From: Aquimarina sp. MAR_2010_214
GTDB taxonomy: Bacteria; Bacteroidota; Bacteroidia; Flavobacteriales; Flavobacteriaceae
Length of the DNA: 64,000 nt
Direction: 5' to 3'
NCBI RefSeq assembly: GCF_002846555.1
Contig: NZ_PJMS01000001.1
Location: forward strand, 1 to 64,000
Shown: positions 7,198-64,000 of the stretch, in pieces
How positions within the stretch are numbered: position 1 is the stretch's first letter
Layout of the letters: the number at the start of each line of letters is the position of its first letter
Notes under the pieces: model-generated
Database searches by the model: none
Told to the model about the DNA's origin: nothing
Seen by the model: the letters and a program-made list of their open reading frames with translations, nothing else
Position numbers and translations under genes: made by a program

Positions 7198-8709
7198 ATG
7201 GATAGACGTCAATTTTTATATCTTAGTGGAGGACTGATCACTATCGCATCTTGCAAAAAATCAGATAGAGAGGTCAAATCCAGACCTAATTTCCCTATCC
7301 ATATTGATTCAAACAGTGCTACAGGGCATCTCGTTAAATCTGCAGTTCAGTTACCAGTTACTACAACATTAACCACAGAAACACTAGTTGTAGGAGGAGG
7401 AATATCAGGAATGGCTGCGGCCTGTTCTTTATCATCAAATGATTTTATAGTTTGTGAATTAAACTCAAGCTTAGGAGGCACATCTAGTGCTTTATCTATT
7501 AATAATGTATTTTATTCTCAAGGAGCGCATTACGAACATACCTATTTACATAATTATGGATATGAAGGTTTAGAATTATTAAAAAAATTAGATGTTATAA
7601 AATTCAATTCATATACTAATTTATGGAATTTTGTAGACCAACAGCATCTTGTTCCTTCTCATCAGGAAGAAGCTTGTTATGTTCACGGAGAAATGAAATC
7701 TTCAGTTTTATTAAATTCTGAACTTCGCAAAAACTTTTTTGACTTGATACGAAGTTTTAGAGGCAAACTTCCATTACCAAGTACCCTAATATCTTCAGAA
7801 CTCCATTATCTTGATCAGATTACTTTTTTTGAATACCTTGATAAATACCTACCTATTGATAACACATTTATCAATGCAATAGATTATCAAATGCTAGATG
7901 ATTATGGAGGTACTACTAAACAAATTTCGGCGTTAGCCGGTATTCATTATTACACTTGCAGACCTTATTACACCAACAAAAACATAAAAACATTTTCGCC
8001 TACTGAGGGGAATTACTATTTTATTAATAAAATGAAGAATTACGTTCCTTCTAGTAATATACATTGTAATCATTTGGTCTTTGAACTGAAAAGAGAGAAC
8101 GAAAAATGGCAGGCAGATATATTAGACACCAAAAATGGAGTGCGAAAAAAAGTAGTCTCGAATACTGTAATTTATGCAGGCCAAAAGCATGCTTTACAAT
8201 ATATAAACCCCACATCATTTCATCAGTTTAATGATATTTCGTACACTCCCTGGGTCGTTATTAATATAATGCTTACCGATGATATTGCATTACCTAACAG
8301 TAAATGGCAAAATGATTTTATATCTACAGACACTACATTTTTAGGGTTTTCCGATTCTAAAATCCAAAATCCGAAAAATGATCGAGTTCTAACTGCATAT
8401 TATTGTTTTCCTGATATGCATCATTATAGTGTTCAGAATTTAGAGACTTCTTATGACTCGATTGTTCATGAAACAATCAAAAAAATGTCTGCCTATTACA
8501 AAAAAGATATTAGCCGTGCTGTAAGAGAAGTATTTATTAAGTTACTGGGGCATGCAATGCCAATTCCACAACCTGGTTATCTAACTAAACCTAGAAATCT
8601 ATTGATCGATGATCTAGCTTTTGCAGGCGCAGATACAGGTCGTTTACCTCTCTTATTTGACGCTTTAGATTCTGGAATACAAGCTGCAAAAACGGTTTCG
8701 AATATCTAA
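7198..8709 (+). CDS. FAD-dependent oxidoreductase (amine-oxidase-like), Tat-type lipoprotein
   Basis: A 503-residue protein starting MDRRQFLYLSGG, a twin-arginine-like signal, with a lipobox-like IASC at residue ~19-22, so it may be exported folded and lipidated. The dinucleotide-binding loop is VVGGGISGMAAACSL (~residue 62), with an acidic/GGTSS segment after it (LNSSLGGTSS). The C terminus LAFAGADTGRLPLLFDALDSG is the FAD-binding end motif of flavin amine oxidases and phytoene-desaturase-like proteins. It is co-transcribed with spermidine synthase copy 1 (9-bp gap), so oxidation of a polyamine product is a reasonable guess, not a demonstrated activity. It ends 7 bp from the convergent end of synthase copy 2. 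Confidence 0.8.
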   Translation: MDRRQFLYLSGGLITIASCKKSDREVKSRPNFPIHIDSNSATGHLVKSAVQLPVTTTLTTETLVVGGGISGMAAACSLSSNDFIVCELNSSLGGTSSALSINNVFYSQGAHYEHTYLHNYGYEGLELLKKLDVIKFNSYTNLWNFVDQQHLVPSHQEEACYVHGEMKSSVLLNSELRKNFFDLIRSFRGKLPLPSTLISSELHYLDQITFFEYLDKYLPIDNTFINAIDYQMLDDYGGTTKQISALAGIHYYTCRPYYTNKNIKTFSPTEGNYYFINKMKNYVPSSNIHCNHLVFELKRENEKWQADILDTKNGVRKKVVSNTVIYAGQKHALQYINPTSFHQFNDISYTPWVVINIMLTDDIALPNSKWQNDFISTDTTFLGFSDSKIQNPKNDRVLTAYYCFPDMHHYSVQNLETSYDSIVHETIKKMSAYYKKDISRAVREVFIKLLGHAMPIPQPGYLTKPRNLLIDDLAFAGADTGRLPLLFDALDSGIQAAKTVSNI

Positions 8710-8716
8710 CATTTTT

Positions 8717-10255
8717 TTAATACATATCCCAATTACCATTCAAATAATACTTATAAAGCATGGGAGAGTTAATTGTATTGATTTCGACCTGAGATGTATC
8801 TGTAAGTGGTTTTCCGAAAGAGGTAATTAAATCTATTGCTTCTTTATTGAGCCATTTATTATTAAGATTTTTATATGAAGCTTGCTTTAACCGCTTTATC
8901 ATCTGTTCTTTGGTATGTTTTTTACTACCCAATATCCAACCCCACTCACCTAAAGTCAACACTTGATTATGCATTTGTAAGTTAGTAAAACCAGCTGTTT
9001 TCATTGTTTTATCAATACAATAAAACGCTTTTGTCGCATAATAAGGGCTTCCAGCTTGTGTAATAATATGACCATTAGGTCTCAATGCATGGTGTGCTAA
9101 ACGATAAAACTCTAGTGAGTAGAGCTTATTAATTTCTATGGTTTTAGCATCAGGCAAATCCACTATTATAATATCATAATACGTTTCGTTTTCTTTTAAA
9201 AAAGTAAATCCATCATCATTTACAATGGTTACTTTAGGGTTTTGCAGTGCTGATTCATTGTATTTCACAATCCCTTCAAACTCTTTACCTAGCTTAGTCA
9301 TCGCCGGGTCTAAATCTACAAGTGTAATAGTACTTACTTCTTCGTATTTTAGTAGTTCTTTTACATTAAAACCATCTCCTCCTCCGATGATCAGGATATT
9401 TTTATGTTCAGGAGTTAGTGCCATAATGGGATGCACCATTGGTTCATGATATAAAAATTCATCGAACGTACTTAACTGTTGATTTCCATTAATGTACAAC
9501 CAATAATGCTCTTTCCATTGTGTAACAGTAATATGCTGGTATTTAGATTGTTCTTGATAGACTATTTTATCTTTATACCTTGATTGTTCACCGTATAAAA
9601 TTATTTCTTCTGATGAAACAAACCCAATACTTAAAATAACAGCTAACAAAAATATGCTGATGTTTATCCATTTTTTTTCTGTAATTAACATACTTCTATA
9701 ATTCCAAAATAAAAGTATGGCTACTATAAAATTTAAGGTTCCAAAAACAAATGCAGTATTCGTAATCCCTAATTCTGGAAGACCCCAAAAGGCGAACAAC
9801 AAACCTCCAATAAGACTTCCTATATAGTCCCAAGACATAATATTGGAAATATTTTTATTTAAAGACTCATGAGTTTCATTAAGCCTTGTTGCTAAAGGGA
9901 TTTCAAATCCTATACAAAAACCTACAGACAATGCTAATCCGTATATAATAATATTTATAAATTCTGTTTTTGCAGCGAATACATATACTAATAATGGAGA
10001 AAAGCTAATCAGAATGGATAATGAAAATTCTATAAAAAGAAATGCTAATAATAAACGTTTAGTCACCAATCGACTCATACGACTACCGATTCCCATAGCA
10101 AACAGCATTATAGACAATACAATAGTCCATTGTACTATTAAGTTTCCTATAAAATAAGATGCCAATGTTGACAAAATAAATTCTGAGGTTAACCCAGAAA
10201 CCCCTGTCGCAAAAATGGCAATTTTAAGCCATAAGCTCTTATTTGTTTTTAGCAT
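8717..10255 (-). CDS. Membrane-anchored spermidine synthase-like aminopropyltransferase (copy 2)
   Basis: A 512-residue paralogue of the protein at 5647-7188 with the same design: about seven N-terminal transmembrane helices, then a SpeE-like domain. The motifs are more canonical: IIGGGDGFNVKELLKY (~residue 288), LVDLDPAMTKLG (~315) and IIVDLPDAKT (~365). It is the last gene of the run from PspA/AdoMet decarboxylase through DUF350, 26 bp after DUF350. Decarboxylated AdoMet made by the upstream gene is its expected aminopropyl donor. It converges on the FAD oxidoreductase. Confidence 0.9.
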   Translation of the reverse strand: MLKTNKSLWLKIAIFATGVSGLTSEFILSTLASYFIGNLIVQWTIVLSIMLFAMGIGSRMSRLVTKRLLLAFLFIEFSLSILISFSPLLVYVFAAKTEFINIIIYGLALSVGFCIGFEIPLATRLNETHESLNKNISNIMSWDYIGSLIGGLLFAFWGLPELGITNTAFVFGTLNFIVAILLFWNYRSMLITEKKWINISIFLLAVILSIGFVSSEEIILYGEQSRYKDKIVYQEQSKYQHITVTQWKEHYWLYINGNQQLSTFDEFLYHEPMVHPIMALTPEHKNILIIGGGDGFNVKELLKYEEVSTITLVDLDPAMTKLGKEFEGIVKYNESALQNPKVTIVNDDGFTFLKENETYYDIIIVDLPDAKTIEINKLYSLEFYRLAHHALRPNGHIITQAGSPYYATKAFYCIDKTMKTAGFTNLQMHNQVLTLGEWGWILGSKKHTKEQMIKRLKQASYKNLNNKWLNKEAIDLITSFGKPLTDTSQVEINTINSPMLYKYYLNGNWDMY

Positions 10256-42232: not shown

Positions 42233-42650
42233 TCATGATGTTCTTGATATTTCACATACCTCTTAATCATATCTTCATCTAGTCCAACTGTACTTACGAA
42301 ATAACCTCTTGACTAAAAATGATTCCCACAATAGGTTTTTTGTTTTAAATTTGGGTATGTCTTGAAAAATTTTATTGCAATTTTACCTTTCAAAACACCC
42401 ATATACTCCTAAATAGATAGTTTTGGTGGAATCGAGCAGATCAAATGAATGTGATCCTTTTGTACATTCATTTCTATTATTTGAACATCCTTTCAAATAC
42501 TAATTACTTGTAAATCATCTCCAACCAATGATTTAATCATACCTTCAAGTATTTGAAATAATCTTTTAGTAGGAACACCTTGGATTATTAACCTCTCAAC
42601 ACCTTGAAATTAGATTGTTTAACAAACCTTAAATAGTTGAAGTTCCAATT
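42233..42650 (-). pseudogene. IS200/IS605 TnpA transposase, decayed
   Basis: Minus-strand reading gives MNVQKDHIHLICSIPPKLSI, then EYMGVLKGKIAIKFFKTYPN, YFVSTVGLDEDMIKRYVKYQ and EHHE, interrupted by stops. The H-x-H in KDHIHL is the HUH metal motif of the single-strand transposase TnpA. In-frame stops follow SIPPKLSI and NHF. No TnpB is seen. Confidence 0.78.
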
Positions 42651-42736: not shown

Positions 42737-42955
42737 ATGCTCCAAGACAAAGTTATATCAATTTATTGTGTAATAGACGATCTATTGAAAGAAATGAACC
42801 ATAAAGAACATAACCAGATAGTCAAGTGCTGATTACAGCTATATTTTCTGCGCTTTATTTTCGAGGTAATCAAATCTTAGCTTTGTTCTATATCAAGAGC
42901 CATTTCTTTGCAGAAACTATCAACAAGAGCGATTTTAACAAAGAAGTGATTTGAA
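42737..42955 (+). pseudogene. IS982-family transposase, N-terminal part, interrupted
   Basis: Starts ATG at 42737 as MLQDKVISIYCVIDDLLKEM, stops after ~32 codons, then in another frame continues ITAIFSALYFRGNQILALFY and IKSHFFAETINKSDFNK. The rest of the transposase is missing and the sequence runs into a different element at about 42955. Same family as the fragment at 27553. Confidence 0.75.
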
Positions 42956-43760
42956 CTTTCTTTTTGAATTTTATAATTCCTATGACCATAAAGGCTAGAT
43001 AGTTAAATCCTTTCCAGCTTTCTGTAGTGGTATCAAATCTATTGAGTAGTGATCTAAAACTATCCATCCAAGCATTGGTTCTTTCAATAGCGTACCTTTG
43101 ATCGTATAGTTTTTGATCAAAATACTCATCCCTATCAGTATTGCCGTTACGTTTGTTAAAGCAAACATTAGCATTGATTTGTTTTAGACCACAAGCTTTT
43201 CTAAATTCCTTGGAATCAAATCCTGCATCAGCGTTTAAGAATAGTCCTTCTGCTTGTATATCGGCATCTTCAAGAGTTGCTGTAACTATTTCGAACTGTA
43301 CTTCAATATTGTAAAGGTCGGTATGATGTCTGGCTACAGGTTCCGACATAACAAGAGGTAATCCTTGTCTATCAGTAAGATAGAGAGCATTAGTGGTCTT
43401 TCGCTTTTTCCTTCCTTGGTATTCTACATCTTGACCACCTCTGACTGCCGGAGTATGACTTCCATCTAGGTCAACACTAGAAAGATCTAGATGTTTTTTC
43501 TTAATAAGTTCTCCTATCCTATAAGCTTGATTCTTCTTGAACTTCTTTCCCTATTTTACACCTTGTTTTTTATTCCTCAATGCTTTCTTACCTCCAGCTT
43601 TATATATTTTACCCAAATCTTGTTTACTCCCGTCTGGATATGACCGAATATCTCAGCACATTACTTGAGTACCTTTCTTACTTTTTAGGTAATACGCTAC
43701 ACGGTAACGAATCAATTCCTGTGCTTCTTGACTATGTCTTTTCTTTATTTTTGTTTTCAT
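42955..43760 (-). pseudogene. IS4/IS5-like DDE transposase, broken by stop codons
   Basis: An N terminus MKTKIKKRHSQEAQELIRYR from 43760 reads into in-frame TGA and TAG stops. The body continues HLDLSSVDLDGSHTPAVRGG, DRQGLPLVMSEP, LFLNADAGFDSKEFRKACGL and the C-terminal YDQRYAIERTNAWMDSFRSL. D-x-DGSHTP, NADAGFD and YAIERTNAW supply the DDE residues of IS4/IS5-type transposases. The last clean reading is to WKGFNYLAFMVIGIIKFKKK, after which translation enters the IS982 remnant. Confidence 0.75.
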
Positions 43761-43978: not shown

Positions 43979-45022
43979 CTAACATAACCAACAAATAATC
44001 AGAGTACTTAACACTATACATATCCAAAAAATAATTTGTAATTTCATTATTATATTATTCTTATGTTTCAGGTTTTTTATGTTCCTGTTTTTAATATAAT
44101 TTAATATTAATTCTCCATACTTTTTTTTAATTCTTTTTTCCATTATGAGTGGATCAAATTCGTTTCCAAAAACAGTTCTCCATTTTTGTCTTGCTAAGCA
44201 ATATTTATTATTCTTTTCTAAATCAATAGCCTTTTTTGAATTGAAATAAGCTAAATTGACTTGATCTTTAAAGTTTTCTGGATTGTAAATTATTTGATGA
44301 CTCCCTAGTACTTCCCATTTTTTTTGAGAACTTGGTAGGTTTTTAAGATATTTAAAAAAATTGTTACACATAATATCATAGCGGTTGTATGAACAATATT
44401 TACCCTCCCATTGAAATAAAAAATTATATGCAAGTGTTTCTAGAAGCTTTTCTTTAATTGGAACACTACAATTTATCCTCCATGCATGTGCCATTTTACA
44501 TAACCTAACAAAGTTTAAACCTGTGGATTTATTCCCTATACTTATGGCATTGATCTCAGAAACTGGGTCTATTACCTTCCAACAACCTTCCAAAGAGATA
44601 TCTGCATACACAAATTTCTCAAAGTTTTTGAATACTGGTATTATATGGATAGTCATATCATCAAAAAAAGACACTTGAATCGTTTGTCTATCCTTATTGA
44701 TTCTCGCATTAGGATAAATTTGGTTAATTGTTTTTTTAACATCTATTAAAAATTCAAGTTGAGGATTACTATTGTGTCTAAAACATTTATTTCTTATAGT
44801 GTCTGGCATTATGTACATGATCTTTATAACTTTATTACCTTTGATAGCTGTTTTTCTTCCAAAAGCACCTATAAACATGCCTCCATAGCCAGATTTCAAA
44901 TTCCAATACTTCATATTCAAAACCTTGCATATACAACTAAATCTTCTATAAATTATTATTTTTTCACTTTCTAAGATCATGAGATTATTACAAAACTCTT
45001 TAAAAACTGATGATACACTCAT
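43979..45022 (-). CDS. CD-NTase (SMODS)-family protein with lost catalytic motif and C-terminal membrane helix
   Basis: A 347-residue protein that follows the CD-NTase (cGAS/DncV-like, SMODS) family along its length: MSVSSVFKEFCNNL, GAFGRKTAI (52-60), SLEGCWKVIDP-like core, RLCKMAHAW, KLLETLAYNFL, FFKYLKNLP and KWRTVFG. Active members make cyclic oligonucleotides in CBASS defence. Here the G-S motif is GA and the paired Asp (normally S-D-x-D before the strand ending P) reads K-V-I-K at 64-67; the third acidic site reads H126 in MTIHIIPVF. It therefore probably cannot make nucleotides. A single membrane helix ends the protein (IIFWICIVLSTLIICWLC). No CBASS effector or Cap gene is nearby. It may be a decaying remnant or a repurposed binding protein. 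Confidence 0.82.
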   Translation of the reverse strand: MSVSSVFKEFCNNLMILESEKIIIYRRFSCICKVLNMKYWNLKSGYGGMFIGAFGRKTAIKGNKVIKIMYIMPDTIRNKCFRHNSNPQLEFLIDVKKTINQIYPNARINKDRQTIQVSFFDDMTIHIIPVFKNFEKFVYADISLEGCWKVIDPVSEINAISIGNKSTGLNFVRLCKMAHAWRINCSVPIKEKLLETLAYNFLFQWEGKYCSYNRYDIMCNNFFKYLKNLPSSQKKWEVLGSHQIIYNPENFKDQVNLAYFNSKKAIDLEKNNKYCLARQKWRTVFGNEFDPLIMEKRIKKKYGELILNYIKNRNIKNLKHKNNIIMKLQIIFWICIVLSTLIICWLC

Positions 45023-46154
45023 AAAACTCTTAATTTATTCAATATTTTTCATATTATATAATCAACTATATAGGGTTTAAGAGAAGATACTCTTGTTTTT
45101 TATATTTATTATATTCTTAGAAATGAGATCCAAATATGGCTTCTGAATTACTATTATCTTTTCCATAATTATTATGAGCTAGCATAAAACACTAATACTA
45201 TAGAAACAGTAGAGAAGTCATTATCACTAGTAAATTTTTTATTTGATTATTAGGATATATTACTTACGGATAGCATATAATGAGAAACTGAATTAGGAGA
45301 AATATTATACATATTACGTTTCCAATCTTCATAACACGGTTATAACACATAATTTGGATTAAAAAACATAGGCAAATTAAAAGTGATTTATGCATTTTTT
45401 TCATATCGTATTATTTTAAAATTAAAAAATAAATTTATCTCTCTTGTTTAAAAAAAAACGAAAAATTCGTTTAAACAAAGAAAAAGAATCGTTGAAATGA
45501 AGGTATGAACAGTTAAATGAAATTCTAATCCAATTAACTTCTATAAAAACAGTATCTATAAACCAATTTAGTGTCAATCTCTGAAAAACTTTATAATACT
45601 CTTACTACATGAAGTTTTTCTCATTAACCTATTGCATTAATATGCATCCACTGTTAGGTTTTCTATAACCTCTATAATTTTTTGGTCATACTTTTTTCAA
45701 GCATATATTCTGTTAAAACACTAGTAGCGATATGGTTATAACCAATTTTACTAGATAAAAACGGTTTGGAGTTATGAATGTAAATCTTATAGTAGTTGTC
45801 CTTTTTTAAAAAGTGGAACTATTATACAAAGCTCGAATCTATCATTTATGGTTTGGTATAAAATTATCCTTTTGATGACTAACAGTAAGAAAGGATTTTC
45901 ATCAAAAGAACCCCAAAAGCACAACTATAACCAGAGTTTATACGCAAATAGGTGTTAAAATATTATTCTAGTAAATTTAAAATTGAATCTTAATACATCA
46001 AAAAGAGAAATAATATTATAAAAATCAATAGGCCGATGAACGATTTGTCTTTCGACAAAAACTATTCGTCGAATTTAACTACACATTCATCGAAATATCC
46101 TAAAACACTTAACACATCGGATTACATTTGAAATGTAAACTTCAAAAAACTACT
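45023..46154. other. Long intergenic region, one palindromic site near its end
   Basis: About 1.1 kb, strongly AT-rich, with no coding frame of interest. Nothing resembling a CBASS effector is present upstream of the CD-NTase. Near its right end lies a nested inverted repeat at 46034-46092. Confidence 0.55.
46034..46092. promoter_or_regulatory. Nested inverted repeat upstream of glycosyltransferase remnant
   Basis: Outer arms CGATGAA (46034-46040) and TTCATCG (46086-46092), inner arms TTCGAC (46051-46056) and GTCGAA (46068-46073). The repeated TTCRTCGA-like cores look like binding sites for a dimeric regulator. It ends ~60 bp before the ATG at 46155. No protein is assigned. Confidence 0.4.
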
Positions 46155-46689
46155 ATGAAAATAGGAATTATCATACCATGTTATAATGAAGAAAAGAGAC
46201 TTAATGTAACTGCTTTCTTAAACTTTATACAAAAAGAAAACGATTTCCACTTGTGTTTTGTAAATGATGGAAGTAAAGACAACACTATAGAAGTATTAAA
46301 GAAGATTCAATCTCATAATCCAGCTAAAGTAAGTGTGATTGATATCAAAAAGAATTCAGGAAAAGCTACTGCTGTAAGAGTTGGTAGGAGATATCTACAT
46401 AGCAGAGGTGATATAGAATCTATTAATTTTATTAATGTTGATCTATCTTCAGATTTTGATGAGTTATTAAAAACTTTAAAAACCAATATAAATTGAGTTT
46501 TTTATTTGGATTCAGAATCAAGGAGATCTCAAACAACATTGGAAAAGATGGTATTAGAGTAATTATTTCAAAATATCTCAATATTCTTATTATACTTAAT
46601 TTTAAGATTGTCCATTCAGGATACACAAGATAGTGCTAAAGTTCTCAAAGCAGATTTGGTCCCAGTAATTTTTAATAAAAGTTTTTAGA
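46155..46689 (+). pseudogene. GT2 (dolichyl-phosphate-mannose-synthase-like) glycosyltransferase, broken
   Basis: The first ~114 codons encode a clear GT2 domain: MKIGIIIPCYNEEKRLNV, FVNDGSKDNTIEVLKKI with the nucleotide-sugar Asp, and KNSGKATAVRVGRRYL. The acidic centre INVDLSSDFDELL is present. After the stop at 46494-46496 other frames carry SFLFGFRIKEISNNIGKDG and AKVLKADLVPVIFNKSF, matching the middle of such enzymes, then end. Full enzymes are ~230-320 residues, so this is a truncated, frameshifted copy. Confidence 0.75.
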
Positions 46690-52034: not shown

Positions 52035-55000
52035 TTATCTATTAATGTATAAGTATCCTGCTCTATTTTTCTGTTCTCCGGATTCCAGAACATATTCAAG
52101 AACATAATAATAAGTTCCCACAGGTAATTGATCTGTATCTTCTATCGTACTTCTTCCCGTTGAGAATCCTCTGAAGAAGTTATCGTCTCTTCCATAATTT
52201 TTGACTCCGAATACTTTAACACCCCAACGATTATAAATTGATACTCTATTTTCCAGGTTTTCGATTCCACTAATTACAAATACATCATTAATTCCATCTC
52301 CGTTAGGTGATATCCCTGTAAAGATTATAATTCCATCTTCACCCTCTCCTGTAGGTTCATTAGGTTCTAAATAATCCGGTATACCGTTACCATCAGTATC
52401 AATAGCATCATCTGGGTTACCATCGCCATTTGGATCTGCATTTTCTTCTGATGTTGGAATACCATCATCATCATCGTCATCATCCAAAATATCAGGAATA
52501 CCATCACCATCAGTATCATCTGGGCCTTGTCCATCGCCATCAGGATCAATTTCTTCTTCATTAATAACACCATCATTATCACAATCTAAAGCCATCCATT
52601 GTGATGATACTATATTTATATTTTGATTATTCAAATCAAAACTACATCCGTCTTCCGGTGCTGTACCATCCTCTATTTCCTGAGCATTATTTACTCCATC
52701 TCCATCACAATCCATAGTATTCCAATTCTCTGATACATTGGCTAGTATTTGATTTTCTGCATTATAATCACAAACATCTATTGGATTAGTTCCATCTGCA
52801 ATCTCCTGCCCATTAGTAACTCCATCTCCATCAGTATCAATTATACTTATATGCGTACAAGCAGTGCAATCTGGATTTGGATCAAAGGTCGATGATGTCA
52901 CTATTGCTGTATTAATCAATTCTGCGTCTGCAAAATTACTATCTATACTAACTACCACAGTATATACTACAGTTGCTCCATTAGCAAGAATTGGTAAAGT
53001 ATGATTTAAATTTCCTGTACCTGTATCTCCTAAACTATTTTGCCAAGACACAATAGATGTATTAGAAGGCGCTACATCAACCACATTAACATTCTGTGCA
53101 TCAATCGGTCCATCATTTTTAACCGTTATTAGGTATACAACTTGCTCGTTTCCTGTATAATAATTATTAAGTGAAGTTTTTGTCGTTATAATATCTGCTC
53201 CACTTATCATATCTGGTCCATCTGTACAACTCGTACAACTTGGATCTGGATCCGTAGGACTGGTTACCGTAGCGGTATTGCTTAGTGTTCCTGTAAAACT
53301 TGCCGGAACATCCACATTAACCGTATAGGTAACTACCCCGCCATTACTCATATTAGTAAGGGTCTCATTAAGGTCTCCACTACCACTCGCATTAGGAAGG
53401 GTAGCCGTACCACTAGTAACCGCTGCTGTCCAACTACTGATCGTAGTGCCTGCCGGAGCAGTATCGGCAACCGTAACACTTGGTGCCATACTTGGACCGT
53501 TATTGGTCATCGTGATCGTATACGCTACTGTAGTACCTGGTGCAAACGTAGTGCTACCATTGGTTTTTACCGTAACAATATCATTTGATGGCGTATTGGT
53601 ATCAGGGCCATCTGTACAACTGGTACAACTTGGATCTGGATCCGTAGGGCTGGTTACCGTAGCGGTATTGCTTAGTGCTCCTGTAAAACTTGCTGGAACA
53701 TCCACATTCACCGTATAGGTAACTACCCCGCCATTACTCATATTAGTAAGGGTCTCATTAAGGTCTCCACTACCACTCGCATTAGGGAGGGTAGCTGTAC
53801 CACTAGTAACCGCTGCCGTCCAACTACTAATTGTAGTGCCTGCCGGAGCAGTATCGGCAACCGTAACACTTGGTGCCATACTTGGACCGTTATTGGTCAT
53901 CGTGATCGTATAGGCAACTGTAGTACCTGGTGCAAACGTAGTGCTGCCATTGGTTTTTACCGTAACAATATCATTCGATGGTGTATTGGTATCTGGACCA
54001 TCTGTACAACTCGTACAACTTGGATCCGGATCCGTAGGACTGGTTACCGTAGCGGTATTGCTTAGTGTTCCTGTAAAACTTGCTGGAACATCCACATTAA
54101 CCGTATAGGTAACTACTCCGCCATTACTCATATTAGTAAGGGTCTCATTAAGATCTCCACTACCACTTGCATTAGGGAGGGTAGCTGTACCACTAGTAAC
54201 CACTGCCGTCCAACTACTAATTGTAGTCCCTGCCGGAGCAGTATCGGCAACCGTAACACTTGGTGCCATACTTGGACCGTTATTGGTCATCGTGATCGTA
54301 TAGGCAACTGTAGTACCTGGTGCAAACGTAGTGCTGCCATTGGTTTTTACCGTAACAATATCATTCGATGGTGTATTGGTATCTGGACCATCTGTACAAC
54401 TCGTACAACTTGGATCTGGATCCGTAGGACTGGTTACCGTAGCGGTATTGCTTAGTGCTCCTGTAAAACTTGCTGGAACATCCACATTAACCGTATAGGT
54501 AACTACTCCGCCATTACTCATATTAGTAAGGGTCTCATTAAGGTCTCCACTACCACTTGCATTAGGGAGGGTAGCTGTACCACTAGTAACCACTGCCGTC
54601 CAACTACTAATTGTAGTCCCTGCCGGAGCAGTATCGGCAACCGTAACACTTGGTGCCATACTTGGACCGTTATTGGTCATCGTGATCGTATAGGCAACTG
54701 TAGTACCTGGTGCAAACGTAGTGCTGCCATTGGTTTTTACCGTAACAATATCATTCGATGGTGTATTGGTATCTGGACCATCTGTACAACTCGTACAACT
54801 TGGATCCGGATCCGTAGGACTGGTTACCGTAGCGGTATTGCTTAGTGTTCCTGTAAAACTTGCTGGAACATCCACATTGACCGTATAGGTAACTACTCCG
54901 CCATTACTCATATTAGTAACCGTCTCATTAAGGTCTCCACTACCACTCGCATTAGGGAGGGTAGCCGTACCACTAGTAACCGCTGCCGTCCAACTACTAA

Positions 55001-58000
55001 TTGTAGTCCCTGCCGGAGCAGTATCGGCAACCGTAACACTTGGTGCCATACTTGGACCGTTATTGGTCATCGTGATCGTATATGCAACTGTAGTACCTGG
55101 TGCAAACGTAGTGCTGCCATTGGTTTTTACCGTAACAATATCATTCGATGGCGTATTGGTATCAGGGCCATCTGTACAACTCGTACAACTTGGATCCGGA
55201 TCCGTAGGGCTGGTTACCGTAGCGGTATTGCTTAGTGTTCCTGTAAAACTCGCTGGAACATCCACATTCACCGTATAGGTAACTACCCCGCCATTACTCA
55301 TATTAGTAAGGGTCTCATTAAGGTCTCCACTACCACTCGCATTAGGGAGGGTAGCCGTACCACTAGTAACCGCTGCTGTCCAACTACTAATTGTAGTCCC
55401 TGCCGGAGCAGTATCGGCAACCGTAACACTTGGTGCCATACTTGGACCGTTATTGGTCATCGTGATCGTATAGGCAACTGTAGTACCTGGTGCAAACGTA
55501 GTGCTGCCATTGGTTTTTACCGTAACAATATCATTCGATGGTGTATTGGTATCTGGACCATCTGTACAACTCGTACAACTTGGATCTGGATCCGTAGGAC
55601 TGGTTACCGTAGCGGTATTGCTTAGTGCTCCTGTAAAACTTGCTGGAACATCCACATTAACCGTATAGGTAACTACTCCGCCATTACTCATATTAGTAAG
55701 GGTCTCATTAAGGTCTCCACTACCACTTGCATTAGGGAGGGTAGCTGTACCACTAGTAACCACTGCCGTCCAACTACTAATTGTAGTCCCTGCCGGAGCA
55801 GTATCGGCAACCGTAACACTTGGTGCCATACTTGGACCGTTATTGGTCATCGTGATCGTATAGGCAACTGTAGTACCTGGTGCAAACGTAGTGCTGCCAT
55901 TGGTTTTTACCGTAACAATATCATTCGATGGTGTATTGGTATCAGGTCCATCTGTACAACTCGTACAACTTGGATCCGGATCCGTAGGACTGGTTACCGT
56001 AGCGGTATTGCTTAGTGTTCCTGTAAAACTTGCTGGAACATCCACATTGACCGTATAGGTAACTACTCCGCCATTACTCATATTAGTAACCGTCTCATTA
56101 AGGTCTCCACTACCACTCGCATTAGGGAGGGTAGCCGTACCACTAGTAACCGCTGCCGTCCAACTACTAATTGTCGTGCCTGCCGGAGCAGTATCGGCAA
56201 CCGTAACACTTGGTGCCATACTTGGACCGTTATTGGTCATCGTGATCGTATACGCTACTGTAGTACCTGGTGCAAACGTAGTGCTACCATTGGTTTTTAC
56301 CGTAACAATATCATTCGATGGTGTATTGGTATCAGGTCCATCTGTACAACTCGTACAACTTGGATCTGGATCTGTAGGACTGGTTACCGTAGCGGTATTG
56401 CTTAGTGCTCCTGTAAAACTTGCTGGAACATCCACATTAACCGTATAGGTAACTACTCCGCCATTACTCATATTAGTAACCGTCTCATTAAGGTCTCCAC
56501 TACCACTCGCATTAGGGAGGGTAGCTGTACCACTAGTAACCACTGCCGTCCAACTACTAATTGTCGTGCCTGCCGGAGCAGTATCGGCAACCGTAACACT
56601 TGGTGCCATACTTGGACCGTTATTGGTCATCGTGATCGTATAGGCAACTGTAGTACCTGGTGCAAACGTAGTGCTGCCATTGGTTTTTACTGTAACAATA
56701 TCATTCGATGGTGTATTGGTATCAGGTCCATCTGTACAACTCGTACAACTTGGGTCTGGATCTGTAGGACTGGTTACCGTAGCGGTATTGCTTAGTGTTC
56801 CTGTAAAACTTGCTGGAACATCCACATTAACCGTATAGGTAACTACTCCGCCATTACTCATATTAGTAACCGTCTCATTAAGGTCTCCACTACCACTTGC
56901 ATTAGGGAGGGTAGCTGTACCACTAGTAACCACTGCCGTCCAACTACTAATTGTAGTCCCTGCCGGAGCAGTATCGGCAACCGTAACACTTGGTGCCATA
57001 CTTGGACCGTTATTGGTCATCGTGATCGTATAGGCAACTGTAGTACCTGGTGCAAACGTAGTGCTGCCATTGGTTTTTACCGTAACAATATCATTCGATG
57101 GTGTATTGGTATCTGGACCATCTGTACAACTCGTACAACTTGGATCTGGATCCGTAGGACTGGTTACCGTAGCGGTATTGCTTAGTGCTCCTGTAAAACT
57201 TGCTGGAACATCCACATTAACCGTATAGGTAACTACTCCGCCATTACTCATATTAGTAAGGGTCTCATTAAGGTCTCCACTACCACTTGCATTAGGGAGG
57301 GTAGCTGTACCACTAGTAACCACTGCCGTCCAACTACTAATTGTAGTCCCTGCCGGAGCAGTATCGGCAACCGTAACACTTGGTGCCATACTTGGACCGT
57401 TATTGGTCATCGTGATCGTATAGGCAACTGTAGTACCTGGTGCAAACGTAGTGCTGCCATTGGTTTTTACCGTAACAATATCATTCGATGGTGTATTGGT
57501 ATCAGGTCCATCTGTACAACTCGTACAACTTGGATCTGGATCCGTAGGACTGGTTACCGTAGCGGTATTGCTTAGTGCTCCTGTAAAACTTGCTGGAACA
57601 TCCACATTAACCGTATAGGTAACTACTCCGCCATTACTCATATTAGTAAGGGTCTCATTAAGGTCTCCACTACCACTTGCATTAGGGAGGGTAGCTGTAC
57701 CACTAGTAACCACTGCCGTCCAACTACTAATTGTAGTCCCTGCCGGAGCAGTATCGGCAACCGTAACACTTGGTGCCATACTTGGACCGTTATTGGTCAT
57801 CGTGATCGTATAGGCAACTGTAGTACCTGGTGCAAACGTAGTGCTGCCATTGGTTTTTACCGTAACAATATCATTCGATGGTGTATTGGTATCTGGACCA
57901 TCTGTACAACTCGTACAACTTGGATCCGGATCCGTAGGACTGGTTACCGTAGCGGTATTGCTTAGTGTTCCTGTAAAACTTGCTGGAACATCCACATTAA

Positions 58001-61000
58001 CCGTATAGGTAACTACTCCGCCATTACTCATATTAGTAAGGGTCTCATTAAGATCTCCACTACCACTTGCATTAGGGAGGGTAGCTGTACCACTAGTAAC
58101 CACTGCCGTCCAACTACTAATTGTAGTCCCTGCCGGAGCAGTATCGGCAACCGTAACACTTGGTGCCATACTTGGACCGTTATTGGTCATCGTGATCGTA
58201 TAGGCAACTGTAGTACCTGGTGCAAACGTAGTGCTGCCATTGGTTTTTACCGTAACAATATCATTCGATGGTGTATTGGTATCTGGACCATCTGTACAAC
58301 TCGTACAACTTGGATCTGGATCCGTAGGACTGGTTACCGTAGCGGTATTGCTTAGTGCTCCTGTAAAACTTGCTGGAACATCCACATTAACCGTATAGGT
58401 AACTACTCCGCCATTACTCATATTAGTAAGGGTCTCATTAAGGTCTCCACTACCACTTGCATTAGGGAGGGTAGCTGTACCACTAGTAACCACTGCCGTC
58501 CAACTACTAATTGTAGTCCCTGCCGGAGCAGTATCGGCAACCGTAACACTTGGTGCCATACTTGGACCGTTATTGGTCATCGTGATCGTATAGGCAACTG
58601 TAGTACCTGGTGCAAACGTAGTGCTGCCATTGGTTTTTACCGTAACAATATCATTCGATGGTGTATTGGTATCTGGACCATCTGTACAACTCGTACAACT
58701 TGGATCCGGATCCGTAGGACTGGTTACCGTAGCGGTATTGCTTAGTGTTCCTGTAAAACTTGCTGGAACATCCACATTGACCGTATAGGTAACTACTCCG
58801 CCATTACTCATATTAGTAACCGTCTCATTAAGGTCTCCACTACCACTCGCATTAGGGAGGGTAGCCGTACCACTAGTAACCGCTGCCGTCCAACTACTAA
58901 TTGTCGTGCCTGCCGGAGCAGTATCGGCAACCGTAACACTTGGTGCCATACTTGGACCGTTATTGGTCATCGTGATCGTATACGCTACTGTAGTACCTGG
59001 TGCAAACGTAGTGCTACCATTGGTTTTTACCGTAACAATATCATTCGATGGTGTATTGGTATCAGGTCCATCTGTACAACTCGTACAACTTGGATCTGGA
59101 TCTGTAGGACTGGTTACCGTAGCGGTATTGCTTAGTGCTCCTGTAAAACTTGCTGGAACATCCACATTAACCGTATAGGTAACTACTCCGCCATTACTCA
59201 TATTAGTAACCGTCTCATTAAGGTCTCCACTACCACTCGCATTAGGGAGGGTAGCTGTACCACTAGTAACCACTGCCGTCCAACTACTAATTGTCGTGCC
59301 TGCCGGAGCAGTATCGGCAACCGTAACACTTGGTGCCATACTTGGACCGTTATTGGTCATCGTGATCGTATAGGCAACTGTAGTACCTGGTGCAAACGTA
59401 GTGCTGCCATTGGTTTTTACTGTAACAATATCATTCGATGGTGTATTGGTATCAGGTCCATCTGTACAACTCGTACAACTTGGGTCTGGATCTGTAGGAC
59501 TGGTTACCGTAGCGGTATTGCTTAGTGTTCCTGTAAAACTTGCTGGAACATCCACATTAACCGTATAGGTAACTACTCCGCCATTACTCATATTAGTAAC
59601 CGTCTCATTAAGGTCTCCACTACCACTTGCATTAGGGAGGGTAGCTGTACCACTAGTAACCACTGCCGTCCAACTACTAATTGTAGTCCCTGCCGGAGCA
59701 GTATCGGCAACCGTAACACTTGGTGCCATACTTGGACCGTTATTGGTCATCGTGATCGTATAGGCAACTGTAGTACCTGGTGCAAACGTAGTGCTGCCAT
59801 TGGTTTTTACCGTAACAATATCATTCGATGGTGTATTGGTATCAGGTCCATCTGTACAACTCGTACAACTTGGATCTGGATCCGTAGGACTGGTTACCGT
59901 AGCGGTATTGCTTAGTGCTCCTGTAAAACTTGCTGGAACATCCACATTAACCGTATAGGTAACTACTCCGCCATTACTCATATTAGTAAGGGTCTCATTA
60001 AGGTCTCCACTACCACTTGCATTAGGGAGGGTAGCTGTACCACTAGTAACCACTGCCGTCCAACTACTAATTGTAGTCCCTGCCGGAGCAGTATCGGCAA
60101 CCGTAACACTTGGTGCCATACTTGGACCGTTATTGGTCATCGTGATCGTATAGGCAACTGTAGTACCTGGTGCAAACGTAGTGCTGCCATTGGTTTTTAC
60201 CGTAACAATATCATTCGATGGTGTATTGGTATCAGGTCCATCTGTACAACTCGTACAACTTGGATCTGGATCCGTAGGACTGGTTACCGTAGCGGTATTG
60301 CTTAGTGCTCCTGTAAAACTTGCTGGAACATCCACATTAACCGTATAGGTAACTACTCCGCCATTACTCATATTAGTAAGGGTCTCATTAAGGTCTCCAC
60401 TACCACTTGCATTAGGGAGGGTAGCTGTACCACTAGTAACCACTGCCGTCCAACTACTAATTGTAGTCCCTGCCGGAGCAGTATCGGCAACCGTAACACT
60501 TGGTGCCATACTTGGACCGTTATTGGTCATCGTGATCGTATAGGCAACTGTAGTACCTGGTGCAAACGTAGTGCTGCCATTGGTTTTTACCGTAACAATA
60601 TCATTCGATGGTGTATTGGTATCTGGACCATCTGTACAACTCGTACAACTTGGATCTGGATCCGTAGGACTGGTTACCGTAGCGGTATTGCTTAGTGCTC
60701 CTGTAAAACTTGCTGGAACATCCACATTAACCGTATAGGTAACTACTCCGCCATTACTCATATTAGTAAGGGTCTCATTAAGGTCTCCACTACCACTCGC
60801 ATTAGGGAGGATAGCCGTACCACTAGTAACCACTGCCGTCCAACTAGTAATTGTCGTGCCTGCCGGAGCAGTATCGGCAACCGTAACACTTGGTGCCATA
60901 CTTGGACCGTTATTGGTCATCGTGATCGTATACGCTACTGTAGTACCTGGTGCAAACGTAGTGCTGCCATTGGTTTTTACCGTAACAATATCATTCGATG

Positions 61001-64000
61001 GTGTATTGGTATCTGGACCATCTGTACAACTCGTACAACTTGGATCTGGATCTGTAGGACTGGTTACCGTAGCGGTATTGCTTAGTGCTCCTGTAAAACT
61101 TGCTGGAACATCCACATTAACCGTATAGGTAACTACTCCGCCATTACTCATATTAGTAAGGGTCTCATTAAGGTCTCCACTACCACTCGCATTAGGGAGG
61201 GTAGCCGTACCACTAGTAACCACTGCTGTCCAACTACTAATTGTCGTGCCTGCCGGAGCAGTATCGGCAACCGTAACACTTGGTGCCACACTTGGACCGT
61301 TATTGGTCATCGTGATCGTATAGGCAACTGTAGTACCTGGGGTAATCGTACCACTACCATTGGTTTTTACCGTAACAATATCATTCGATGGTGTATTGGT
61401 ATCAGGTCCATCTGTACAACTCGTACAACTTGGGTCTGGATCTGTAGGACTGGTTACCGTAGCGGTATTGCTTAGTGCTCCTGTAAAACTTGCTGGAACA
61501 TCCACATTAACCGTATAGGTAACTACCCCGCCATTACTCATATTAGTAACCGTCTCATTAAGGTCTCCACTACCACTCGCATTAGGGAGTGTAGCAGTAC
61601 CACTGCTAACCGCTACTGTCCAACTACTGATCGTAGTACCTGCCGGAGCAGTATCAGCAACCGTAACACTTGGTGCCATACTTGGCCCACTATTAATCAT
61701 TGTGATCGTATACGCTACTGTAGTACCTGGTGCAAACGTAGTGCTACTATTGGTTTTTACGGTAATAATATCATTCGATGGTGTATTGGTATCAGGTCCA
61801 TCTGTACAACTCGTACAACTTGGATCCGGATCCGTAGGGCTGGTTACCGTAGCAGTATTGCTTAGTGCTCCTGTAAAACTTGCTGGAACATCCACATTAA
61901 CCGTATAGGTAACTACCCCGCCATTACTCATATTAGTAACCGTCTCATTAAGGTCTCCACTACCACTCGCATTAGGGAGTGTAGCAGTACCACTGCTAAC
62001 CGCTGCTGTCCAACTACTGATCGTAGTACCTGCCGGAGCAGTATCAGCAACCGTAACACTTGGTGCCACACTTGGACCGTTATTGGTCATCGTGATCGTA
62101 TAGGCTACTGTAGTACCTGGTGCAAACGTAGTGCTGCCATTGGTTTTTACCGTAACAATATCATTCGATGGCGTATTGGTATCAGGTCCATCTGTACAAC
62201 TCGTACAACTTGGATCTGGATCTGTAGGACTGGTTACCGTAGCGGTATTGCTTAGTGCTCCTGTAAAACTTGCTGGAACATCCACATTAACCGTATAGGT
62301 AACTACTCCGCCATTACTCATATTAGTAAGGGTCTCATTAAGATTTCCACTACCACTCGCATTAGGGAGTGTAGCAGTACCGCTAGTAACCACTGCCGTC
62401 CAACTACTGATCGTAGTGCCTGCCGGAGCAGTATCGGCAACCGTAACACTTGGTGCCACACTTGGACCGTTATTGGTCATCGTGATCGTATACGCTACTG
62501 TAGTACCTGGTGCAAACGTAGTGCTGCCATTGGTTTTTACCGTAACAATATCATTTGATGCGACACAAACATTAGCAGTATTATTGGTCACATTACCCAA
62601 ACGAGTAGCATCGGTAGTATAAGTTAAACCTGTAATCGCACCGTTGGTAGTAACTCCTGCGTTATTTACAACGCCTCCATACGTACCATCACTATTAGAA
62701 TCTGCTGGTGAACTTAGATAATCTGTATAACTTGTATTATACGCTTCATTAGCATCATTACAGCCATCGCCATCACTATCGGTATTTATATAATCTGCCG
62801 GACTTGTTCCTACTGTATTAGTTGGGGTATTTCCTGTTCCTGCTGTACTTGGTACTCCATTAGTTGTTGGTGTAGTACCAACCGCTCCATTTGCCTGTCC
62901 TAAGTTTGTTGCACTTGGAGTTCCTCCTGATTCTACTACATCATAAATCCCATCATTGTCGCTGTCTATATCTAAATAATCTAATATACCATCTTGATCT
63001 GTGTCTTTTGGTATACAATAATTTAAAGAACTAACACCAATTCTCTGACTTCCTGTAGGAACTATACTATCTGAGTAAATTATTTCTATTGTATCCACTA
63101 GAACAGGAAATGTTATTTGAACATTTCCATCTACGGAAGTATTACCAATACCCTCGAATTCATTTAAACCATTATATTGGGTATATGTAGCATTTAAAGT
63201 AAAATCTGAAGCTGTTAGCGTAACCAAACTACCGTTAATATAACCATTAACTGTTATTTTATCAGCCCAACCCGTATTTGCATCAACATCAAGTAATGAA
63301 AATGACACTAACAAGGGCTTTGAAAACCCAATTGTAGCAACGGTATTATCACTTATAGAATTTGGCTCCTGGCTGAAGTTCCAAAAATTTGTAAATCCAG
63401 AATACGTAGAGCTTGTTTCAATATTTGCATCAGTTACACCTGCTCCTGCTGTTGAAGTTCTCGAAAACGTAAATGTCACCCCATTTTCTGTACTTGTACT
63501 TAGCGTAGGGTCTTGTTCATCAGAATAATGTACAGAATAATCAAATGTATTTGGTAAAGTACTACAACCTATTTCATCTGTATCCAAAATACCATCATTA
63601 TCATCATCTAAATCTGCGGTATCTACTATTCCATCACCATCTGAATCTAATTCACAAACACTAACTGTACTATTATTAATCACATTGCTCAAACGGGTAG
63701 CATCGGTAGTATAGGTTAAGCCTGTAATCGCGCCGTTGGTAGTCACCCCTGCGTTATCTACAACGCCTCCATACGTACCATCTGCATTAGAATCGGTTGG
63801 TGAACTTACATAGTTTGCATAGCTTGTATTATACGCCTCATTGGCATCGTTACAGCCATCTCCATCACTATCGGTATTTACATAGTCTTCAGGACTTGTT
63901 CCTATAGTGTTAGTTGGTGTGTTTCCAGTTCCTGCTGTACTTGGTATTCCGTTTGTAGTTGGTGTAGTACCAACTGCTCCGTCTGCTTCTCCTAAATTAG
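52035..64000 (-). CDS. Giant T9SS type B surface protein with 24 near-identical DUF11 repeats (5' end beyond window)
   Basis: At least 3,988 codons in one open frame. It continues past 64000, where NLGEADGAVGTTPTTNG is still in frame, so the start and signal peptide are outside. From the N-terminal side it has Asp-rich thrombospondin/calcium-type segments (DSDGDGCNDANEAYNTSY, DLDDDNDGILDTDE) around an unidentified beta domain. The 24 DUF11 repeats of 130 residues follow (62562 to 53203), then one divergent DUF11 unit (~52850-53200) and Asp-rich DxDGDG segments (~52370-52850). The end is a gliding-motility-associated C-terminal domain (GISPNGDGINDVFVI to LYINR), the type B T9SS sorting signal. 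It should be exported by the T9SS and displayed, aided by the PorP/SprF protein. Repeats each contain paired Cys (CTSC). Confidence 0.9.
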   Translation of the reverse strand, partial: NLGEADGAVGTTPTTNGIPSTAGTGNTPTNTIGTSPEDYVNTDSDGDGCNDANEAYNTSYANYVSSPTDSNADGTYGGVVDNAGVTTNGAITGLTYTTDATRLSNVINNSTVSVCELDSDGDGIVDTADLDDDNDGILDTDEIGCSTLPNTFDYSVHYSDEQDPTLSTSTENGVTFTFSRTSTAGAGVTDANIETSSTYSGFTNFWNFSQEPNSISDNTVATIGFSKPLLVSFSLLDVDANTGWADKITVNGYINGSLVTLTASDFTLNATYTQYNGLNEFEGIGNTSVDGNVQITFPVLVDTIEIIYSDSIVPTGSQRIGVSSLNYCIPKDTDQDGILDYLDIDSDNDGIYDVVESGGTPSATNLGQANGAVGTTPTTNGVPSTAGTGNTPTNTVGTSPADYINTDSDGDGCNDANEAYNTSYTDYLSSPADSNSDGTYGGVVNNAGVTTNGAITGLTYTTDATRLGNVTNNTANVCVASNDIVTVKTNGSTTFAPGTTVAYTITMTNNGPSVAPSVTVADTAPAGTTISSWTAVVTSGTATLPNASGSGNLNETLTNMSNGGVVTYTVNVDVPASFTGALSNTATVTSPTDPDPSCTSCTDGPDTNTPSNDIVTVKTNGSTTFAPGTTVAYTITMTNNGPSVAPSVTVADTAPAGTTISSWTAAVSSGTATLPNASGSGDLNETVTNMSNGGVVTYTVNVDVPASFTGALSNTATVTSPTDPDPSCTSCTDGPDTNTPSNDIITVKTNSSTTFAPGTTVAYTITMINSGPSMAPSVTVADTAPAGTTISSWTVAVSSGTATLPNASGSGDLNETVTNMSNGGVVTYTVNVDVPASFTGALSNTATVTSPTDPDPSCTSCTDGPDTNTPSNDIVTVKTNGSGTITPGTTVAYTITMTNNGPSVAPSVTVADTAPAGTTISSWTAVVTSGTATLPNASGSGDLNETLTNMSNGGVVTYTVNVDVPASFTGALSNTATVTSPTDPDPSCTSCTDGPDTNTPSNDIVTVKTNGSTTFAPGTTVAYTITMTNNGPSMAPSVTVADTAPAGTTITSWTAVVTSGTAILPNASGSGDLNETLTNMSNGGVVTYTVNVDVPASFTGALSNTATVTSPTDPDPSCTSCTDGPDTNTPSNDIVTVKTNGSTTFAPGTTVAYTITMTNNGPSMAPSVTVADTAPAGTTISSWTAVVTSGTATLPNASGSGDLNETLTNMSNGGVVTYTVNVDVPASFTGALSNTATVTSPTDPDPSCTSCTDGPDTNTPSNDIVTVKTNGSTTFAPGTTVAYTITMTNNGPSMAPSVTVADTAPAGTTISSWTAVVTSGTATLPNASGSGDLNETLTNMSNGGVVTYTVNVDVPASFTGALSNTATVTSPTDPDPSCTSCTDGPDTNTPSNDIVTVKTNGSTTFAPGTTVAYTITMTNNGPSMAPSVTVADTAPAGTTISSWTAVVTSGTATLPNASGSGDLNETVTNMSNGGVVTYTVNVDVPASFTGTLSNTATVTSPTDPDPSCTSCTDGPDTNTPSNDIVTVKTNGSTTFAPGTTVAYTITMTNNGPSMAPSVTVADTAPAGTTISSWTAVVTSGTATLPNASGSGDLNETVTNMSNGGVVTYTVNVDVPASFTGALSNTATVTSPTDPDPSCTSCTDGPDTNTPSNDIVTVKTNGSTTFAPGTTVAYTITMTNNGPSMAPSVTVADTAPAGTTISSWTAAVTSGTATLPNASGSGDLNETVTNMSNGGVVTYTVNVDVPASFTGTLSNTATVTSPTDPDPSCTSCTDGPDTNTPSNDIVTVKTNGSTTFAPGTTVAYTITMTNNGPSMAPSVTVADTAPAGTTISSWTAVVTSGTATLPNASGSGDLNETLTNMSNGGVVTYTVNVDVPASFTGALSNTATVTSPTDPDPSCTSCTDGPDTNTPSNDIVTVKTNGSTTFAPGTTVAYTITMTNNGPSMAPSVTVADTAPAGTTISSWTAVVTSGTATLPNASGSGDLNETLTNMSNGGVVTYTVNVDVPASFTGTLSNTATVTSPTDPDPSCTSCTDGPDTNTPSNDIVTVKTNGSTTFAPGTTVAYTITMTNNGPSMAPSVTVADTAPAGTTISSWTAVVTSGTATLPNASGSGDLNETLTNMSNGGVVTYTVNVDVPASFTGALSNTATVTSPTDPDPSCTSCTDGPDTNTPSNDIVTVKTNGSTTFAPGTTVAYTITMTNNGPSMAPSVTVADTAPAGTTISSWTAVVTSGTATLPNASGSGDLNETLTNMSNGGVVTYTVNVDVPASFTGALSNTATVTSPTDPDPSCTSCTDGPDTNTPSNDIVTVKTNGSTTFAPGTTVAYTITMTNNGPSMAPSVTVADTAPAGTTISSWTAVVTSGTATLPNASGSGDLNETVTNMSNGGVVTYTVNVDVPASFTGTLSNTATVTSPTDPDPSCTSCTDGPDTNTPSNDIVTVKTNGSTTFAPGTTVAYTITMTNNGPSMAPSVTVADTAPAGTTISSWTAVVTSGTATLPNASGSGDLNETVTNMSNGGVVTYTVNVDVPASFTGALSNTATVTSPTDPDPSCTSCTDGPDTNTPSNDIVTVKTNGSTTFAPGTTVAYTITMTNNGPSMAPSVTVADTAPAGTTISSWTAAVTSGTATLPNASGSGDLNETVTNMSNGGVVTYTVNVDVPASFTGTLSNTATVTSPTDPDPSCTSCTDGPDTNTPSNDIVTVKTNGSTTFAPGTTVAYTITMTNNGPSMAPSVTVADTAPAGTTISSWTAVVTSGTATLPNASGSGDLNETLTNMSNGGVVTYTVNVDVPASFTGALSNTATVTSPTDPDPSCTSCTDGPDTNTPSNDIVTVKTNGSTTFAPGTTVAYTITMTNNGPSMAPSVTVADTAPAGTTISSWTAAVTSGTATLPNASGSGDLNETLTNMSNGGVVTYTVNVDVPASFTGTLSNTATVTSPTDPDPSCTSCTDGPDTNTPSNDIVTVKTNGSTTFAPGTTVAYTITMTNNGPSMAPSVTVADTAPAGTTISSWTAAVTSGTATLPNASGSGDLNETVTNMSNGGVVTYTVNVDVPASFTGTLSNTATVTSPTDPDPSCTSCTDGPDTNTPSNDIVTVKTNGSTTFAPGTTVAYTITMTNNGPSMAPSVTVADTAPAGTTISSWTAVVTSGTATLPNASGSGDLNETLTNMSNGGVVTYTVNVDVPASFTGALSNTATVTSPTDPDPSCTSCTDGPDTNTPSNDIVTVKTNGSTTFAPGTTVAYTITMTNNGPSMAPSVTVADTAPAGTTISSWTAVVTSGTATLPNASGSGDLNETLTNMSNGGVVTYTVNVDVPASFTGTLSNTATVTSPTDPDPSCTSCTDGPDTNTPSNDIVTVKTNGSTTFAPGTTVAYTITMTNNGPSMAPSVTVADTAPAGTTISSWTAAVTSGTATLPNASGSGDLNETLTNMSNGGVVTYTVNVDVPASFTGALSNTATVTSPTDPDPSCTSCTDGPDTNTPSNDIVTVKTNGSTTFAPGTTVAYTITMTNNGPSMAPSVTVADTAPAGTTISSWTAAVTSGTATLPNASGSGDLNETLTNMSNGGVVTYTVNVDVPASFTGTLSNTATVTSPTDPDPSCTSCTDGPDMISGADIITTKTSLNNYYTGNEQVVYLITVKNDGPIDAQNVNVVDVAPSNTSIVSWQNSLGDTGTGNLNHTLPILANGATVVYTVVVSIDSNFADAELINTAIVTSSTFDPNPDCTACTHISIIDTDGDGVTNGQEIADGTNPIDVCDYNAENQILANVSENWNTMDCDGDGVNNAQEIEDGTAPEDGCSFDLNNQNINIVSSQWMALDCDNDGVINEEEIDPDGDGQGPDDTDGDGIPDILDDDDDDDGIPTSEENADPNGDGNPDDAIDTDGNGIPDYLEPNEPTGEGEDGIIIFTGISPNGDGINDVFVISGIENLENRVSIYNRWGVKVFGVKNYGRDDNFFRGFSTGRSTIEDTDQLPVGTYYYVLEYVLESGEQKNRAGYLYINR
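53203..62562 (-). repeat. Tandem array of 24 DUF11 units, 390 bp each
   Basis: The anchor TCTGTACAACTCGTACAACT (or a close variant) recurs every 390 bp from 53221 to 62191, that is 24 times. Units differ at few positions, mostly recurring alternative bases (ATCTGGACCA/ATCAGGTCCA, GGATCCGGA/GGATCTGGA, TAAGGGTCTC/TAACCGTCTC). Blocks are shared at 2,730 bp (7 units) and 3,900 bp (10 units) offsets. Homogenisation by recombination is likely; copy number may differ in the true genome. Confidence 0.95.
62574..64000 (-). repeat. Duplicated Asp-rich module at the upstream side of the array
   Basis: The segment from ATCGGTAGTATAAGTTAAAC (around 62610) through CGCCTCCATACGTACCATC reappears about 1.09 kb further on (around 63700). 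It encodes GAITGLTYTTDATRL and GDGCNDANEAYNTSY in both places. The second copy is cut by the window end. Confidence 0.75.

Follow-up and report, generated by a model that had tools for sequence, protein, structure and literature searches.

CD-NTases are defined by the making of a messenger, and the gene at 43979..45022 (minus strand, stop included) of the window, by which we mean the whole 64,000-nucleotide stretch of Aquimarina sp. MAR_2010_214 that was analysed, raises the question of what a protein of this fold does once the residues for that chemistry are gone. An initial annotation had described it as an uninterrupted CD-NTase homologue lacking its catalytic acids, ending in a single membrane helix and standing next to no CBASS effector gene. 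It had left two options, a pseudogene or an inactive nucleotide-binding sensor tethered to the membrane, and had suggested structure prediction, a search for homologues sharing the V-x-K motif and their dN/dS as ways to decide. The two options are best divided between two objects, since the family to which the gene belongs is probably under constraint and the window copy itself is most likely decaying. Our reading, which we regard as rather probable, places the window gene, as a shortened and rapidly changing copy, in a fusion family centred on Aquimarina, in whose intact members a catalysis-free domain would serve in cis as a sensor or holder.

The window gene and its fused relatives

The gene encodes a truncated pseudo-CD-NTase-SLATT protein of 347 aa. 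Structure prediction gave a CD-NTase (SMODS) fold, confidently across the domain (residues 1-292, 44147..45022, minus strand), and the motifs of active enzymes are absent from it: GS is replaced by GA, with A53 (44864..44866) at the Ser of active relatives, D-x-D is replaced by V-x-K, with V65 (44828..44830) at the first Asp and K67 (44822..44824) at the second, and H126 (44645..44647) occupies the third site, which is Glu or Asp in active relatives (all minus strand). Residues 293-347 (43982..44146, minus strand) align continuously to fused relatives as the stub of a SLATT_4 effector domain, the remainder of which is absent. Hydropathy places a single hydrophobic helix at residues 323-347 (43982..44056, minus strand), the counterpart of the first of two helices in most relatives, and in the AF2 model these residues lie within one long helix, 291-346. 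The alignment of the protein reaches the beginning of SLATT and breaks off after helix 1, short of a complete domain; the stub alone matches SLATT parts weakly (best E 0.012), and no SLATT_4 (PF18186) match above the Pfam cut-off was found in the protein or its genome, the same search being positive in 19 of the 66 genomes searched in the genus. Among the window ORFs scanned beside the gene there is no CBASS effector gene, and the stub, as the sole SLATT remnant, is all that the gene has of an adjacent or fused effector. The initial description of fold, residues, helix, open frame and missing effector gene was thus borne out.

The window protein belongs to a clade of ~490-aa SMODS + SLATT_4 fusions, mostly from Aquimarina. 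A search of 140 related genomes gave 18 matches, 17 of them in the genus with the window genome counted, and the genus homologues are ~490 aa long with open frames, the single exception being a broken copy. Both SMODS and SLATT_4 exceed their Pfam cut-offs in all six intact fused relatives scanned, SLATT_4 falling under the cut-off in two other fused copies of the genus (G045 and G056). A simple scan found two hydrophobic segments in five of six fused relatives, one in L066 and one (323-347) in the window protein, and the model of the fused protein L024 (pLDDT 84.8) has a long helix at 295-348 followed by another at 352-373. A genome-contig search returned 78 loci, 18 of which are Aquimarina fusions, and in a protein search with the fused profile 15 full-length fusions rank first among the best 120 of 314 matches, these 120 being the proteins used. 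Removal of nine duplicates left 23 distinct full-length fused proteins, 19 of them from Aquimarina records (the other four are P0010, P0015, P0017 and P0018). The fused and unfused sets were drawn from pattern- or word-limited searches, and the 166 unfused rows include near-copies. L037 was omitted from the dN/dS estimates, the ackA comparison and the fused residue alignment, L083 was omitted from the residue alignment, and L098 was unused.

Within the genus the fused copy is patchily present (17 of 66 genomes), and 16 of the 17 Aquimarina genomes that carry it have no other SMODS gene by a PF18144 search, to which cyclases beyond PF18144 would be invisible. One Aquimarina genome, G009, carries a different pair (L117 / L132), in which SLATT lies just upstream of a SMODS cyclase with D-x-D. 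A family-level sample of 397 genomes, with at most three candidates scored per genome, gave eight matches; none outside the genus is fused, and the best two are two-gene pairs.

Such pairs are the usual arrangement among unfused relatives, since a SLATT frame adjoins the cyclase in 43 of 59 unfused genome loci. At 26 of 31 short-type loci and 17 of 28 longer-type loci, no more than 500 bases separate the cyclase end from the start of a SLATT-like frame; among the other five short-type loci, two lie at contig ends, two have a SLATT-like frame ~3 kb upstream and the last lacks one. The SLATT genes of L170 and L171 begin before the cyclase gene has ended, an overlap that may offer a simple route to fusion. 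The two-gene CBASS-type operon, a SMODS nucleotidyltransferase followed by SLATT, shares the SMODS subfamily and a related SLATT effector with the fusions, but consists of two proteins with the catalytic set intact, whereas the fusion family is one protein without it. Likewise CdnD of P. aeruginosa (PDB 6p82) has D-x-D (D62, D64) and was solved as a protein without a fused effector. Carriage of the fusion by a phage or plasmid was considered and rejected, the plasmid and viral relatives examined being unfused: among the best 8 of 149 plasmid records, the six covering at least 80% of the query carry a two-gene annotation, two Listeria phage records match weakly (22% identity), and five viral-contig loci have no frame over 431 aa and all carry GS and D-x-D.

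Loss of catalytic residues and constraint on the family

The complete set of GS, D-x-D and third acid is found in none of the 23 distinct fused proteins and in 163 of 166 unfused relatives, the remaining three being two rows with Gln at the third site and one broken fragment. The possibility allowed for at the outset, that homologues would all keep D-x-D and leave this copy unique, is not what the family presents. V-x-K itself is absent from the other 199 rows, and the homologues have lost the residues in other ways, one common form being GC, E-x-D and N. The first acid position is E, K, D, T, A, S, N or V across the fused clade, with at least 12 changes on the tree. The unfused relatives have 62 columns with conservation of 95% or more, and within this set S53, D65 and D67 stand out in the fused clade for their variability (exact P 0.018). 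A239, S64, S242, R221 and G192, conserved in active relatives, are also lost or variable there, and some of these columns are expected to line the pocket; the glycine loop (G52, G55, R56, T58) is retained. Distance alone does not explain the loss of catalytic residues, since the unfused set has 30 of 166 rows of at least 320 aa, and the eight of these that were aligned share only 29 to 33% identity with the window protein.

In a quick 58-row tree without bootstraps, the fused proteins form one side of a branch with SH-aLRT 100 and a stem of 0.62, next to 292-aa cyclases. The window SMODS falls inside the fused clade, on a branch with P0018 at 93, its row being flagged as too long for sure placement. 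The dN/dS estimates among homologues gave 0.06-0.21 in the seven fused pairs of lowest dS (dS 0.41-1.21), with 0.07-0.17 for the SMODS part and 0.05-0.27 for the SLATT part of the same pairs; the eighth pair by dS (1.24) has 0.38. The pairs, having sequences in common, are not independent. Seventeen of 19 fused loci are open at full length, most of them 33-47% identical to L021; the other two are the truncated window copy and the frame-broken L037. In the latter (8001-9456, Aquimarina sp. 2201CG14-23) the fused frame breaks after 260 codons.

Sixteen of the 19 fused loci lie at one chromosomal site, marked by ackA (acetate kinase), a secreted endonuclease I gene or both, each present at 15 loci; these neighbours were identified by Pfam on L021. 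Over 13 loci the fused gene tree has 8 of 10 splits in common with that of ackA (Mantel r 0.78). At 20 ackA-endonuclease sites without the fused gene, the window genome's included, no relic was found at E<=1e-3, one of these stretches (L161) ending at a contig end; in the window genome's own site there is no fused gene in 15 kb. The concordance with ackA, the fixed site and the relic-free empty sites make the history of the fused gene look like vertical descent with clean losses. Comparison of L149-L168 with L021-L036 marks the position after the secreted endonuclease gene by ackA as a presence/absence site, and in L162 the next conserved gene follows ~160 bases after the endonuclease. A 653-aa protein with an AIM24 match (L028, 9584-11545) follows the fused gene in seven loci; in G022, which has no fused gene, an AIM24-match protein comes directly after the endonuclease. 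As far as sequences can tell, the fused family is probably a constrained pseudoenzyme effector, and the inactive membrane-bound CD-NTase of the initial annotation is recovered in the intact relatives, with their open frames, low dN/dS and lack of a catalytic set.

A possible role for the intact fusions

What has been fused is a CBASS-type cyclase (SMODS domain) and its SLATT_4 membrane effector, with the catalytic residues lost. SLATT proteins are described as predicted pores (PMC12632851, PMC7159879), and a sequence search for PDB relatives of SLATT gave none that was convincing. In the intact members the pseudo-CD-NTase domain would make no messenger and would act as a cis sensor or holding domain for the attached SLATT; a trigger, possibly a phage product, would make the domain change shape or assemble, whereupon the SLATT membrane pore would open, a single protein thereby standing in for cyclase, messenger and receptor. 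This proposal of direct gating draws indirect support from the constraint on both domains, the loss of catalytic residues and the absence of any other SMODS gene in 16 of the 17 genomes. In a tentative extension that may well prove wrong, a CBASS operon would have turned into an immune switch of one protein and no messenger, which gates its pore directly and has since been passed down at a fixed site within one genus rather than travelling from one defence island to another.

Among known systems, DRT10 (reverse transcriptase, SLATT and ncRNA) shares the SLATT element, but its sensor enzyme is unrelated and its SLATT is a separate protein. That SLATT protein is required for phage defence (PMC12632851), and its authors propose that cDNA modulates a pore-like SLATT effector (PMC12632851). 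The DZF domains of NF45 and NF90 in animals likewise have a nucleotidyltransferase fold minus key catalytic residues, but are distant, non-membrane, RNA-binding heterodimers; they have been called pseudoenzymes (PMC11952958), examples that pseudo-nucleotidyltransferases with retained roles exist in animals (PMC11952958), and a DZF structure of this type (4at9_A) was found at rank 36 of our fold search. Among the literature matches listed, no title or abstract opening mentions a catalytically dead SMODS-SLATT fusion, and such fusions may be in print. A clade that keeps fold and effector under constraint without the catalytic residues would, if the reading is true, separate the sensing role from the chemistry and stand as a bacterial counterpart of NF45-NF90 and similar pseudo-nucleotidyltransferases of animals; a testable prediction is that such fused proteins act without added nucleotide signal.

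Other explanations can be weighed against the same residues. An unlikely one, close to the sensor of the initial annotation, is that the pseudo-CD-NTase serves as receptor for a nucleotide which a different enzyme produces: its fold binds nucleotides in other proteins and has its glycine loop in place, but A239, S242, R221 and G192 have been lost or vary, and 16 of 17 genomes offer no second SMODS gene as a source, cyclases beyond PF18144 being possible sources. The nucleotide-binding part of that claim accordingly gained no positive support, since other columns of active relatives vary along with the acids, though the loop is kept. It is quite unlikely that the fused proteins still catalyse, with Glu standing for Asp in the metal site and the messenger acting on the attached SLATT in cis. 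Among the 23 fused proteins, 12 do carry Glu at the first position, L027 is acidic at all three, and L032 retains GS and D-x-D with the third acid alone missing; some residual activity may even persist in fused members, given Asp or Glu at the second position in 21 of 23. Against catalysis, in 22 of the 23 at least one of the three positions is non-acidic even with Glu allowed, L027 being the exception; the first position can also be K, T, A, S or N (V in the window protein); and C, N or A stands in place of the GS serine in 17 of 24 proteins, the window protein counted. That the whole family is decaying in parallel, its apparent constraint a leftover, would fit the patchy presence, the broken L037 and truncated window copy, the 20 sites without a copy and the long stem, yet it is most improbable in view of the full-length open frames at 17 of 19 loci, maintained for the most part at 33-47% identity to L021, and of the low dN/dS in the least diverged pairs.

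The window copy

For the window copy the pseudogene option is the one that fits, on the strength of its truncation, branch length, excess changes and surroundings. It is sited elsewhere than the chromosomal site of the family, among transposase relics: a DDE transposase relic lies beside the truncated end (42888..43550, minus strand; PF13586, PF01609 and PF13359 above cut-offs by 0.2 to 5.1 bits), with no second copy in the window genome, and an IS200-type transposase fragment at 42412..42492 (minus strand; PF01797, 29.1 bits over 27 aa, cut-off 23). Its end branch of 0.89 is the longest on the tree (median 0.21), and its lowest dS to kin is 1.48. In all 11 Tajima relative-rate tests the changes unique to the window copy outnumber those of the relative, 1.2 to 3.3 times as many; eight have P<0.05, the other three giving 0.48, 0.26 and 0.095. 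With P0018 as the relative compared, P is 0.002, 0.001 and 7e-7 for the outgroups L021, P0016 and P0017 and 0.48 and 0.26 for L032 and P0002; against L021, P0016 and P0017, five of six tests are significant and the sixth has P 0.095. Taken together, the missing effector part, the transposase relics and the excess of own changes indicate that the window copy is most likely decaying and heading to a pseudogene. It would probably be unable to form a pore, since the second membrane helix and everything beyond it are absent.

The SMODS part is nevertheless not random, as its frame is open and, of 52 positions that show no variation among 17 relatives, it retains 44, at a mean identity of 36%; for comparison, L032, at 43% identity, breaks 7 of 59 invariant positions. 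These retained positions, together with the open frame and the hydrophobic helix, would suit a functional short membrane-tethered decoy or inhibitor, a reading that we consider very unlikely: the copy is the sole truncated-but-open one among 19 loci, its branch is long with more own changes than its kin, it lies among transposase relics, and its genome has no other SMODS to regulate. Decay remains the preferred reading of this copy, which has little functional interest beyond leading to the family.

Several candidates around the locus did not hold up. For a plain stop codon or frameshift behind the short C-terminus, the SLATT-like matches outside the stub in any window frame are only weak, the best having E 0.023 at 46140-46427 within a glycosyltransferase ORF; an insertion element with other copies at the break is set aside by the 731 bases around the 3' end, which have no second match in the genome; and a partner SMODS cyclase for the window copy was sought, with none in the window genome. 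The glycosyltransferase ORF itself (46128-46496, plus strand, 122 aa, family 2 match) stands in a gene-poor stretch and is probably a truncated gene. Further along, a single open frame of 3903 aa occupies 52035-63746 (minus strand), and weak tblastn hits from ~54.5 to 60.5 kb, spaced by multiples of 390 bases, suggest that it contains a long internal repeat.
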